Below, piece by piece: positions 22,418-63,634 of a DNA stretch of 64,000 nt. This DNA comes from Axinella damicornis. Lineage: Eukaryota > Porifera > Demospongiae > Axinellida > Axinellidae. The stretch covers positions 11,953,478-12,017,477 of the forward strand of contig OZ007514.1 of assembly GCA_963931865.1 (NCBI GenBank). The letters run 5' to 3'. Each line of letters starts with the position of its first letter. The stretch's first letter is position 1. The notes below the pieces were generated by a model. That model saw nothing but the letters and a program-made list of their open reading frames with translations. It did no database searches and was not told the origin of the DNA. Made by a program: the position numbers and the translations under genes.

Positions 22418-25400
22418 TCACAAGCTATTCTGCTGCTCTGGACTCTGACCTTGCATACCAACCTGATATGCAACGTTTGTTTCAGTAGCTATTGGTTGCA
22501 TCGCAATCTCATACGCAACGTTCTTCTTGGTGTCTATGGTTTGCCTCCCGGCAAGGTTCAGCTCCACAACTGCATACTCTGGATAATCTCTGGCTGCTAC
22601 ACTGTTCTGTCTCTTGTGTAGTTGCACTCTTAATCGGATGTGACAGCACAGCACTGCTCCAAACAGTGCAATAGCAACGACTGCTACAATGGAAGGAATC
22701 ACTGCTGCAGCAATCACAGCTCCTGGAGATTCAGAATCTGAAGGAATTACAAATGTCATGATATGCAGTGTTAAACTGCTGTGATTTCTGGGACTTGGTT
22801 TCAAGAGGAGTGAGATTACTTAAGGAGGTTCCAAAGTAAAGATCAATGTTATCAAAGGTATATACGTGCTCAGTTCATTTGGGAGTTTATAGCACACTGA
22901 GTTCTTGGGAGAAAGGCAACCCTTGTGATAACTTTGTGAGTCTCAAAAATATTAACTTCCTTGACATACATGTCACCAACGATTCCACATGCTAGTTATG
23001 GTTCTGGAGCTCACTGTAAGAAAAAGTGGCCACCTCATTTCCCATTCCATCAAAGAAACAAGTCTCAATGTCTAGGCCAGGTTAATAGATATAGCTGCTG
23101 CCCTTGATTGAACAGTCAAATCACAAGAAATAGGCATCTTTTCATGAAAATAGGGCACAGCAAAACACGAATTGTTGTTATGGCTGAAGCTGTGTTATTC
23201 CAGACGTATAGTGTGTGGGTAAACAGCTGACTTTAAGATGCTACTATAGCTAAGCTGGGAGTTGCCGGTTAGGAATGATGTTTACCAAGCTCACAGCACA
23301 CAGGGTATTCTGTCTTTGTACATAGATATGCCAGGAGGTACATTTTGCACTTGCAACTCATAATCACGTGCTGGGAGTTACTAAATTGTAAACAGCACGC
23401 AACCTGATGTTTACAAATACTTTCAACCCCCCAGACAACTGTTGTTTTGCAAAGTTAACCCCAGAGGTACTCAACTGGTAATGATCATACTTCGTTCAAC
23501 ACTGAGAATGAGAGGACTTGAGAACTGCCCAGTTCCAACTCCTGTGACTGCTTGGATCTGAATGCAGAGCAAATTAACAACAAATCAACCTTTATTTACT
23601 GTATTTGCCATGCACAACATTATTGTGTACAGTGCATGCATACAAAACGCTAGAAAAACTCGAAACTGTACCCACTGCATGTAGCAGAAAGTGGGATAAC
23701 GCACCTGAACACGGTAAGTCCCGCTTCTTAGCCCCAACATTGTAAAATTGAAAGTCATTCCAGTCACTTCTCTCACTACAATCACAAAGTCTTCATTTTC
23801 CTCCGCATCCACACGTGATATGCGGATATCATAATGTAGGATCACCCCATTTGGCTCAGCTGGAGGTAGCCATGTGATGATGGTACTGCCCTTACTGATG
23901 TTAAAAGCAGGAAGTGATATGATGGAGGGCACTGAGGGAAGAGGATGGAGAAATGGTGTAGGAGGAAGAGGAAATGGGGAATAATGGTAGAAGTAAGAGG
24001 AGGGTACTGTGAGGAGGATGGAGATAGGAGGATGGAGATAGGTGCAAGCAAGGAGCTGCAACTGGCTGTTTAAACAAAGATAAAATTAATCTCTACTCTA
24101 GGTCACAATTATACATCCAGCCAGCCCATACCTCCTTCCCCAGTGGTGATGGTTGCACTGACAGTCCTCCCACTGGCGTCAGTGGCCTGGGCTGACACTC
24201 CATTCTCACCACTCACCATCACCACATACTGTGTGAATGGCCTGAGGCCAGTGATCTGACCGACAGTGACATTGACTCGACCGTACACTCTCCCATTGTC
24301 TGGGACACCTGCCCTCTGATAGGAGACTTGGTACTCCAGGTCATCTCTCCCTCCATTGCTCACTGGAGGGTCCCAACTGAGCTGGACTGTGGTGTTGGTC
24401 ACTTGGAGCACTTGCAAGTTGAGCGGAGCAGAGGGGGGCTCTGTACGTGTGTGTGTGTGTGACAAGGGGAGAGCAGATGAGCGTGTGTGTGTGCGTGTGT
24501 GTTATGTGTGTGTGTGTGTGTGTGTGTGTTATGTGTGTGTGTGTGTGTGTGTTATGTGTGTGTGTGTGTGTGTGTGTGTGTGTGTGTGTGTGTGTGTGTG
24601 TGCGCGCGCGCACACGTGTATAGTAAATATTGAGATGGCACAGTAGACAATTGCAAACGAACTCAATGCATTAATGTAGCTATACTCAAAGAGTACGTAC
24701 GAGTACATTGCATTTCTGGAGGTTCACCAACATCTCTGAAGTATCCCTCAAAGCAGGGGCACTCGGATAGCCCTCGTTGTGTGCTGTTGCTGTTAGCAGG
24801 ACAGGGGAGACAGGTGACATTGACAGACAGGTACATCCCAGCATCACAACCTTTGAAGGAGGGAGGAAGGAAAGGATGATCAGTGCAGCGAAAATCATAA
24901 CCGCAACCAAGATGGCCAGTTGCAGTGAGTAGGTCTACTCTTCAGTTTTAAGAATTATGTAAATGCAACATCACTTCTAATACCTTGGGCTCAGCACCCT
25001 TGAATTGGGCTCAGTTTTCCATATAGTTACAATGTACATTTGGACTTAAAAACGAAATACAGTACTATTATGTTTTTTATGAGTGTGTGTGTGCGAGTGC
25101 GTGTGTGTGTGTGTGTGCTGTGCGTGTGTGCGTGTGTGTGTGTGTGTGTGTGGGGGGGGGGGGGGGGGGGGGGGGGGGGGGGTGTTATAAAAGTCTGTAC
25201 GATCAGTCTTTACTTCTATTGCCCTTAAAGCTTAGCTCAGTACACATGTAGTCAGCTAGCCCTCTCAACTCATGGAATTGACTCACCTCCCTCCTCGGTG
25301 GTGATGTTCATACTGACAGTCTTCCCACTGGCGTCAGTTGCCTGGGCTGACACTCCATTCTCACCACTGACCATCACCACATACCGTGTGAATGGCCTGA

Positions 25401-61900: not shown

Positions 61901-63634
61901 CACCTCCCTCCTCGGTGGTGATGTTCATACTGACAGTCCTCCCACTGGCGTCAGTGGCCTGGGCTGACACTCCATTCTCACCACTCACCATCACCACATA
62001 CCGTGTGAATGGCCTGAGGCCTGTGATCTGACCCATAGTGACATTGACTCGACCGTACACTGTCCCATTGTCTGGGACACCTGCCCTCTGATAGGAGAGT
62101 TGGTACTCCAGGTCATCTCTCCCTCCATTGCTCACTGGAGGGTCCCAACTGAGCTGGACCGTGGTGTCGGTCACTTGGAGCACTCGCAAGTTGAGAGGGG
62201 CAGAGGGGGGCTCTGTATATGTGTGTGTGTGTGTGTGCATACAACAGACACAAATTCAAGGCAACAAAATTTCCACATGTTTGTACATGGGTTTTGATAG
62301 CACAGTAGAGGGTTCTACACAGCATACATGTCTATAATGCACACTCAGAAGGAATGCGTACGAGTACATCCCATTTCTGGAGGTTCTCCAACAGCTCTGA
62401 AGTATCCCTCAAAGCAGGGGCACTCGGACAGCCCTCGTTGTGTGCTGTTGCTGTTAGAAGGACAGGGGAGACAGGTAGTGTTTGTGGACAGGTACATCCC
62501 AGCATCACAACCTTTGTAGGGAGAGGAAGGGAGCAAGGGTGAAGGTAAATAAATGGATGGACAGGTAGACTAACAAATGTACAAGAATGTATGGACAAAC
62601 AAACAGACAAGAACGTACCCACGCATGAGCGACCATCCAAGGATCGCTGAAATCCTGTGTCACATACACATCCAGCACCACCAAGCCCTCCCAAAACACC
62701 GTTCTGTGAGCAAGTAAGTCTTGGTCCATTTCCATTTTCTGGACTTGAATTCTCAACACACTGTCCATTAACTACAATTGGTGCACTGTTGCCAATGAAA
62801 GGAGCTATCACCTCAGGGCGAGTAATGAGATCTGACGTCTCTGCAGGACAAACATAGTAAAATACTAGCACACGATGAACAAGTACGCATGAAGTCTCGT
62901 CTCGGATCCCCAGGTAGAATCCAGTTGCTGCTGTAGCAAAATTTATTTGTACTGAGGAGTTCTCTCTTACATCACCACTGCCATCGGTGGGGGTTATCTG
63001 AGGAGGGACAAACTCATAGTTGCTGAGGTTTCTTGCTGCAGTTGCATTGATGGTTGACGTCTCATACTTGTGGATGGCGAATGTCCGACCACAGTTGTTC
63101 ATTTGAGTGCAAGAGTTCAGTTGAAAGTCTACCTGCACAGTAACTTGTGGCAGTGCAGTACCATCAACCACCCTACTGATGTGCTGAGTGATCATCCAGT
63201 TGTCTTGGTTGCCAGCTTCAAATCCACACACAAAAGCAACTTGTCTGCAAAGGAGATTAGTATTCTGAGTCCACTGGAAAGGGAAAAAAATTACTGCATC
63301 CACTCACTCATACACTAGAGCTGAGTACCAACTAATGTGCTCCTGAACTATACTACAAAATCTCTACCCAACTTACATCAGTTGTAGTACCAGTAGGATT
63401 ATTGTCATCATTGTCCACTTCTTGCCAGACTGCATTCGGATGTGGAGGTAGCAAGTTCTGGTAGTGGCGTGAGTCCATCAGAGGCTTGACCTCGGGAGCG
63501 TAGTCTAGGATGTTAAATCCGATACCAGGCAGGGTTTCGGTGCAGAAAGGATCAGCATCGTCGGGAGCTTGGGCAAAACTCTCTCTCAACAAAGTCAATT
63601 GCAACACGATCACTAGAGCAACCAACAGCCACAT
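58926..63634 (-). CDS. E8: kinase-less Eph-like receptor with three FN3 domains
   Basis: Exons: 63377-63634, 62619-63273, 62362-62511, 61904-62212, 61463-61612, 60923-61231, 60164-60393, 59964-60030 and 58926-59245. The joined frame is 2448 nt (815 aa), open throughout. Residues: signal peptide 1-22, Eph ligand-binding domain to about 235, sushi/EGF-like part to 304, Cys-rich exon to 354, FN3 to 457, second Cys-rich exon to 507, FN3 to 610, FN3 to 709, then TM helix and tail. Introns are mostly phase 1. Like E3 it has the extra Cys-rich + FN3 pair and the NISKGSTIITWLPPAEPNG version of the last FN3. Its tail end (MQVIATEANAAYQVGMQ) equals that of E5 while its TM start equals E3. Upstream in-frame Met at 63700 is less likely as the start. 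Confidence 0.82.
60541..60813. mobile_element. TTTAGTTTTAG-rich insertion in E8 intron 6
   Basis: Begins TGTTGTTATCTAAAACTGAAA-like and ends TTTAGTTAACTAAAACAACA, inverted relative to each other. Filled with TTTAGTTTTAGTT repeats. The matching intron of E3 (23940-24060) lacks it. Confidence 0.5.
61268..61403. repeat. (TG)n tract beside an FN3 splice acceptor of E8
   Basis: TG repeat with TTATG and GCATG breaks. In the direction of E8 it is (CA)n leading to the acceptor of exon 6 at 61231. Confidence 0.9.

Follow-up and report, generated by a model that had tools for sequence, protein, structure and literature searches.

Kinase-less Eph-type receptor genes beside an Eph receptor kinase in the sponge Axinella damicornis, with a cytoplasmic tail that recurs behind other receptor ectodomains

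Eph receptors are textbook receptor kinases. What kind of receptor is then encoded by a tandem cluster of Eph-type genes that end without a kinase? The question is raised by a stretch of 64,000 nucleotides of the sponge Axinella damicornis (contig OZ007514.1, here called C10, positions 11953478-12017477; "the window"), in which a reading made from the sequence alone had noticed five such genes. The window belongs to a 120-contig assembly of 226.5 Mb, and this assembly was the genome searched. Gene models were built for the copies in the window, and short loci (labelled L0xx) were read outside it. In the following, "array" denotes the minus-strand cluster of Eph-type genes, and EphK an Eph receptor kinase gene that lies beside it. 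The array genes have an Eph ectodomain without a kinase, they are paralogs of EphK in this ectodomain, and they share their cytoplasmic tail with genes of other receptor types.

The five complete genes (E3, E4, E5, E7 and E8, Table 1) splice to uninterrupted frames on the minus strand between positions 63634 and 22418, all junctions of the models being GT..AG and the intron phases consistent. All five are clean, and the proposal that they join into open frames with the Eph ectodomain order and a transmembrane (TM) segment is thereby confirmed. E3 and E8 have nine exons against seven in E4, E5 and E7, the difference being an extra pair of Cys-rich and FN3 exons. Both ends of each of these exons are in phase 1, so that the gain of a pair leaves the frame intact. 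Each model has one hydrophobic segment besides the signal region (by the Kyte-Doolittle scale, which is not a TM predictor) and 8-15 N-glycosylation sequons. The tail is shorter than the 70-80 residues first estimated, i.e. 56 residues follow the TM segment in E4 and E7 and 68 in E3, E5 and E8. The start methionine of E7 was placed by homology to the other copies, and a second in-frame ATG lies 15 bases upstream; E4 likewise has an in-frame ATG 15 bases upstream of the chosen start.

The domain content was investigated by scanning two of the five models, E4 and E8, against Pfam. Ephrin_lbd was matched above its cut-off of 27 bits in both (49.2 in E8, 48.9 in E4), and fn3 was matched in three stretches of E8 and two of E4. 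The Ephrin_CRD profile reached 22.7 bits in E4 (below its cut-off of 27) and 17.4 in EphK, with no match in E8. In other words, the ectodomain first proposed holds for its ligand-binding and FN3 parts, while the Cys-rich region matches its profile below cut-off and in one of the two models only, and E3 and E8 carry an additional exon pair. Residues 101-554 of E4 align to the solved ectodomain of EphA4 (PDB search, E = 3e-51), and this alignment passes through the Cys-rich region. Of 8000 candidates scored in a protein database search with E4, nine reached E <= 0.001. Three of these are unnamed and have an Eph ligand-binding domain (LBD; 74, 56 and 42% identity); the rest are vertebrate Ephs, apart from two other proteins. 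One database protein, P0008 (837 residues), has an Eph LBD, a Cys-rich part, FN3 and, by eye, a TM-like segment, with no kinase in its precomputed Pfam list; either it is a further Eph-like protein of the kinase-less kind or its gene model is wrong.

No kinase, SAM or EphA2_TM domain was matched by Pfam in E4 or E8. When the TM, juxtamembrane, kinase and SAM pieces of EphK were compared with the window by tblastn, no convincing Eph kinase exon was found (chance-level matches, best E 0.06), and the best SAM match had an E-value of only 0.56. Inside the whole array, no kinase was matched among the 131 candidates, out of 1745, that were scored in a genome search with PF07714, and no kinase-SAM region among the 107 candidates, out of 948, that were scored with an EphK query. 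The window genes were said to lack kinase and SAM, and the tblastn and Pfam results agree on this. Neither of the outcomes that would refute the sequence-only reading came up in these searches, since no Eph kinase exon was found and Ephrin_lbd is matched.

The array reaches beyond the five genes first noticed. A profile search of the contigs gave 21 Ephrin_lbd matches, all on C10: 15 in the array (11.945-12.167 Mb, minus strand throughout), five at 11.262-11.322 Mb and one at 12.380 Mb on the plus strand. A genome search with the tail as query found 15 array tails at C10:11.96-12.15 Mb (E <= 1.5e-33), which bears out the suggestion of one common tail across the cluster. The window holds six Ephrin_lbd copies and seven tails of the array's 15 and 15. 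The five matches at C10:11262060-11321647 (part of them in L035) form a second, divergent Eph-LBD cluster, which has a Pro/Thr-rich stalk in the single 10 kb stretch read there; no kinase was found near it among the 131 candidates, out of 1745, that were scored with PF07714.

The search of the genome for an Eph gene with a kinase led to EphK (C10:12379001-12399000), which lies about 0.2 Mb past the array on the plus strand, i.e. on the strand opposite to it. Array-like ectodomain exons are followed here by TM, juxtamembrane (YVDPTTY), kinase and SAM exons. The cytoplasmic half matches the Pfam kinase with 295 bits, SAM_2 with 59.7 and EphA2_TM with 29.3, the last being the single EphA2_TM match in the genome. 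EphK is 88-95% identical in DNA to the window copies in exon 1, the LBD, the Cys-rich region and FN3a; its FN3b matches E4, E5 and E7 (91-92%), and its FN3c matches E5 only (81%). The TM/tail exon of the array has no match in EphK longer than 80 bases at E <= 1e-10. The LBD exon of EphK differs from those of eight array sequences by 7.9% of the DNA on average, against 6.1% within the array. The sequence-only reading had described a separate receptor family, which does not hold for the ectodomains, since by these differences they are close paralogs of EphK. The array appears to have branched off recently from an Eph gene, with its terminal exons replaced. The direction of this change, from an EphK-like gene to the array, is suggested by the canonical form of EphK. 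Partial copies of the EphK-type kinase end and SAM were also seen on the plus strand at C10:12485065, 12569288-12569764 and 12612212, without a nearby LBD match, and an EphK intron contains a long minisatellite with a repeated LAASLVPR-like frame (L033:4691-5986, plus strand).

What stands in place of the kinase is a single terminal exon that encodes the TM segment, a short tail with two N-x-A-Y motifs and usually a Y-x-x-V, and the stop. Two N-x-A-Y motifs are present in all 14 distinct array tails, one remnant counted; the fifteenth tail locus, L022, was missed by the pattern and is outside the 14. Three array tails (E4, E7 and L026) form a short class without the DYPEY segment, with both motifs kept. 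N-x-A-Y occurs in 43 out of 43 tails (14 from C10, 27 from contig C3, one from C1 and one from C4), and a motif of the form YE[EDLVM][VIM], YAVV or YADV occurs in 11 of the 14 C10 tails, 26 of the 28 C3 and C1 tails and the one from C4. An origin of the tail from the juxtamembrane region of EphK was considered and rejected (score 30, equalled by 225 of 2000 shuffles).

It is conspicuous that this tail is not confined to Eph ectodomains. A gene inside the array combines an SRCR ectodomain (PF00530, 54.3 bits) with the TM/NxAY tail; its first exon and the donor of its third exon are proposals. The SRCR segment is identical (106 of 106 residues) beside two further array tails, L019 and L020, L016 being the window copy itself. 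The array tail query also weakly matches contigs C4 and C3, where the layout of the tail is alike and the same-strand open reading frames (ORFs) upstream of the tails include immunoglobulin (Ig) domains on C4 and Sushi domains on C3. The Sushi tail as query gave 62 matches at E <= 1, of which 43 lie on C3 (13.97-15.14 Mb), 10 within the array on C10 and the remaining 9 elsewhere. With the Ig tail there were 30 at this threshold: 15 of them lie on C4 (13.37-13.62 Mb), 12 within the array on C10 and the other 3 elsewhere. In pairwise comparison the Eph tail scores 77 against the Ig tail and 60 against the Sushi tail, values that none of 2000 shuffles reached in either case.

A tail profile without the TM segment was built from 28 tails of C3 (27) and C1 (1) and one of C4; two of 30 loci, L055 and L056, gave no extractable tail. 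The test set consisted of 854 window ORFs, 854 reversed ORFs and 1400 composition-preserving shuffled tails. All seven window tails rank in the best eight of this set, the five full ones (including the remnant and the tail of the SRCR gene) with 23.5-29.2 bits and the two short ones with 14.5 and 12.3. When the C4 tail is left out of the profile, the five full tails are still on top (12.8-15.3 bits, best shuffle 10.3). These sequence comparisons place the array tail in a wider tail family that extends across Eph, SRCR, Sushi and Ig neighbours, and a tail common to other receptor types changes what the array probably means. In the protein database, 661 proteins match a second profile, A2, at E <= 0.01 among 8000 scored candidates; A2 includes the TM segment, so the weaker ones among the 661 are perhaps not genuinely related. 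Among the 120 matches listed none is named, five have a Sushi domain and the rest have no Pfam domain. Among 19 of these tail proteins, some repeat an ENVAYGPV unit up to four times. At least one protein, P0126, is the sequence of L049, so part of the 661 comes from the same or a very close species.

A second pair of kinase and kinase-less genes was found on C4, where at least 20 open kinase frames, and one more with stops, lie at 13.80-14.13 Mb, some 0.2 Mb away from the array of Ig tails. The Ig exon of one of these kinase genes (L066, C4:14126600-14131000) is 94% identical in DNA over 415 bases (98 of 110 amino acids) to that of the kinase-less L028; the stalk is similar (80-85%), and there is no match beyond it. 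The pairing of one ectodomain with a kinase and with an NxAY tail therefore appears at two loci whose ectodomains differ, and we infer that it extends to the other C4 kinases. The long juxtamembrane region of L066 contains DYTPEYATTEP, which resembles DYPEYAVVEP of the array tail (5 of 2000 shuffles scored as high); this likeness is suggestive only.

Selection was estimated as the ratio of nonsynonymous to synonymous changes (dN/dS, Nei-Gojobori). The LBD exon was taken from nine sequences including EphK: E1 (frame broken), L006 and L007 (no exon end found) were dropped, and array copies whose DNA was not read are not in the set. For the tail and the TM segment ten full-length tails were used, three of them from SRCR genes, without the short tails, the remnant and the loci that duplicate window copies. 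The ratio is 0.33 for the LBD exon (0.35 for its LBD part, 0.28 for its Cys-rich part), 0.23 for the cytoplasmic tail and 1.24 for the TM segment, and it ranges from 0.10 to 0.60 in eleven sliding windows along the LBD exon. By this measure the LBD exon and the cytoplasmic tail are under purifying selection, and the TM segment is not constrained.

A 25-base element precedes all six LBD genes of the window and the SRCR gene (none expected by shuffling). Of its 29 genomic matches, 15 lie in the array, where 12 precede LBD genes and three precede SRCR-type tails; a further one lies on C10 outside the array, and the remaining 13 are on other contigs, 11 of them with two mismatches. Near three of the 15 array LBDs it was not found within two mismatches. 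An array-specific element is rejected because of the 13 matches on other contigs. So scattered a sequence could belong to a dispersed repeat, the alternative being a promoter element. The longer upstream stretches of the window genes are alike in subgroups, i.e. E8 and E5 (337 of 365 positions) and E4 and E7 (590 of 597), the other pairs being 40-70% identical over the whole alignment and 49-84% over its last 250 columns. The upstream sequence of EphK is unrelated to them (34-43% identity in the last 250 alignment columns). Of the shared promoter first claimed there remains the element before each of the six LBD genes; it also occurs on other contigs, and the sequence upstream is otherwise alike only in subgroups. 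The coordinates are collected in Table 1. ORFs between the SRCR gene and E3 (window positions 15150-16589, minus strand) are, from their motifs, presumably reverse-transcriptase-like and belong to a retrotransposon.

Table 1. Features of the window, in window coordinates
Feature	Position	Strand	Description
E8	58926..63634	-	kinase-less Eph-type, 9 exons, 815 aa, three FN3 domains
E8 exons	63634-63377, 63273-62619, 62511-62362, 62212-61904, 61612-61463, 61231-60923, 60393-60164, 60030-59964, 59245-58926	-	all GT-AG
E7	51833..57078	-	kinase-less Eph-type, 7 exons, 650 aa, short tail variant
E5	39887..44998	-	kinase-less Eph-type, 7 exons, 660 aa
E4	29680..38006	-	kinase-less Eph-type, 7 exons, 648 aa, short tail variant
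E3	22418..27688	-	kinase-less Eph-type, 9 exons, 814 aa, Cys-rich + FN3 exon pair duplicated
E1	486..1794	-	damaged Eph-type copy, exons 1 and 2 with a broken frame; may run past window start
SRCR gene inside array	8163..10250	-	SRCR ectodomain with array upstream element and TM/NxAY tail
SRCR gene, proposed exons	10250-10175, 10005-9823, 9741-9451, 8482-8163	-	borders by eye, phase-1 junctions
E8 terminal exon	58926..59245	-	TM, NxAY tail, stop; phase-1 acceptor
E7 terminal exon	51833..52119	-	short tail without DYPEY segment
E5 terminal exon	39887..40203	-	TM, NxAY tail, stop
E4 terminal exon	29680..29960	-	short tail without DYPEY segment
E3 terminal exon	22418..22737	-	TM, NxAY tail, stop
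Extra tail copy behind E7	50286..50570	-	upstream part interrupted by stop; remnant-like
Upstream element of E8	63733..63757	-	
Upstream element of E7	57184..57208	-	1 mismatch
Upstream element of E5	45094..45118	-	1 mismatch
Upstream element of E4	38107..38131	-	1 mismatch
Upstream element of E3	27838..27862	-	2 mismatches
Upstream element of SRCR gene	10399..10423	-	
Upstream element of E1	1886..1910	-	

What such receptors may do is best explained, we believe with slightly more confidence than doubt, by kinase-less receptors that share the ligand of EphK and signal via a phosphotyrosine docking tail. The array proteins would bind the membrane ligand of EphK, an ephrin-like protein, and would co-cluster with EphK in the same membrane via their near-identical ectodomains. 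EphK, or some other tyrosine kinase, could then phosphorylate the tail tyrosines in trans, whereupon the tails would recruit proteins with SH2 or PTB domains. The output may be inhibitory or activating, the sequence being compatible with either. The array would supply the members without a kinase in a paired-receptor system that has one binding specificity and two outputs, a kinase and a docking tail, and the Ig receptors of C4 also suggest such a pairing. More tentatively, and with doubt somewhat the greater, we propose a broader version: a family of NxAY tail exons attached to four or more kinds of ectodomain, among them Eph, SRCR, Sushi and Ig, of which Eph and Ig are also kept on kinases, would form a kinase-based paired-receptor system in an early animal lineage, with Eph ectodomains as immune-type recognition modules.

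Several observations weigh against these proposals. The Ig and Sushi exons were assigned to their tails by adjacency and not by splicing, and only one C4 kinase gene, L066, was read into its ectodomain. The Ig-kinase juxtamembrane region shows no particular likeness to the C4 Ig tail (score equalled or beaten by 1154 of 2000 shuffles), and FN3b of EphK has no match in E3 or E8. Neither of two familiar tyrosine motifs is found in the 43 tails: there is no immunoreceptor tyrosine-based activation motif (ITAM, paired YxxL/I with short spacing) and no NPxY, the N at -3 being kept and the P at -2 not. The inhibition motif (ITIM, [SIVLT]xYxx[ILV]) occurs in two of the 14 array tails against 24 of the 28 C3/C1 tails. 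As for the tail family, 5 of 2000 shuffles scored at least as high as the Ig tail does against the Sushi tail (45), the best shuffle in the profile test (14.0 bits; best reversal 6.0) lies above one of the short window tails, and with the C4 tail left out both short window tails are absent from the best 12 rows. Single cross-family E-values of the array tails are weak as well (0.001 to 0.7); the mass of reciprocal tail matches, unlike these single values, is not weak. A genome search for an ephrin ligand with PF00812 gave no match; the controls were silent too, so this is not evidence of absence, and it counts mildly against an ephrin-like ligand because PF00812 did recover an ephrin in Spongilla (PMC10176882).

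The array proteins might be a decoy or sink that binds the Eph ligand and dampens EphK, the tail being an anchor or endocytosis signal only. We regard this as rather unlikely, albeit the strongest of the rivals: the absence of a kinase and an ectodomain close to that of EphK are what a decoy would need, and Eph splice isoforms without a kinase and with altered activity are known (PMC6993872), yet a tail with a dN/dS of 0.23 and a motif kept across different receptors favours signalling, even if an endocytic role would fit too. Adhesion, in which kinase-less Ephs hold cells together, is a role that Krishnan et al. 2019 (PMC6485061) proposed for Eph-like factors without catalytic activity, and FN3-rich proteins with this number of N-glycosylation sequons are in line with it; we nevertheless consider it improbable, as the conserved tail in common with SRCR, Sushi and Ig receptors is left unexplained.

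That the copies diversify in their ligand-binding face to distinguish individuals appears slightly less probable still. A tandem array with recent duplicates, and a tail common to immune-type ectodomains, would suit such self/non-self receptors, but the LBD part has a dN/dS of 0.35, the top sliding window reaches 0.60 only, and there is no sign of diversifying selection on the LBD in the eleven windows of nine sequences from one assembly. For the hypervariable form of the self/non-self role, about which the sequence-only reading had speculated, the substitution pattern of these sequences gives no support. We consider it very improbable that the array is an artefact, be it of pseudogenes, of misassembly or of alternative transcripts that run on into a kinase. 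E1 is broken, one extra tail is remnant-like and EphK-like SAM-end fragments lie at C10:12.485-12.612 Mb; against this stand five intact frames and purifying selection on LBD and tail, on which grounds a pseudogene array is rejected. Splicing into kinase exons is rejected likewise, as none was found in the window or, among the candidates scored, in the rest of the array, and EphK is on the other strand.

A kinase half swapped for a tail common to SRCR, Sushi and Ig receptors would show how the capture of a terminal exon can rewire receptors. It suggests that early animals, too, pair one ectodomain with two outputs in the manner of vertebrate immune receptors, a receptor kinase being one partner. 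The array moreover gives an answer at the level of genes to the question whether the kinase-lacking Ephs of early animals are real genes or broken models. It also draws attention to a family of tails that has, among the 120 database matches listed of 661, no name and no Pfam domain other than Sushi.

Compared with known systems, the array resembles the Eph receptor kinases (EphA/EphB and invertebrate Eph) in having Ephrin_lbd, a putative Cys-rich part, FN3 and one TM segment, and differs from them in its cytoplasmic part, which is the NxAY tail exon; neither E4 nor E8, the models scanned, matches EphA2_TM, kinase or SAM. Sponges, cnidarians and ctenophores have been described as having Eph architectures that lack a kinase, with adhesion as the suggested role, from gene-model and transcriptome data with many partial models (Krishnan et al. 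2019, PMC6485061). The Eph LBD without a tyrosine kinase is alike in those proteins and ours; here complete genes, a neighbouring kinase paralog and a new C terminus are seen. Kinase-dead Ephs have been traced back to jawed vertebrates, and EphA10 and EphB6 may signal through their association with other Eph receptors (Arcas et al. 2019, PMC6993872). These two receptors and the kinase-lacking isoforms likewise present an Eph ectodomain without catalytic output, but EphA10 and EphB6 keep an inactive kinase and the isoforms arise by splicing, whereas the array consists of separate genes with a different terminal exon. Both the expansion of SRCR genes and tandem arrays are known from sponges (PMC4772301, PMC10855680). 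Thus kinase-lacking Eph-LBD proteins as such are not new; the complete array, the adjacent kinase paralog, the tail behind four ectodomains and the Ig parallel were not found in the literature searched. This search, which covered few subscription papers, gave no description of the NxAY tail or of an Eph or Ig pairing of kinase and kinase-less receptors. Geodia cydonium is said to have an Ig-domain receptor tyrosine kinase, and sponges adhesion molecules with Ig domains, which would be a similar combination of an Ig receptor kinase and a kinase-less Ig molecule in a sponge; in the review literature consulted no link to Eph receptors or to a common tail is seen. The LILR, KIR and SIRP paired receptors are clustered genes with near-identical ectodomains and two signalling outputs, their tails carrying ITIM or ITAM motifs. 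The array differs from them in that the partner output would be a receptor kinase and not an ITAM adaptor, and in that 12 of the 14 array tails are without the ITIM consensus.

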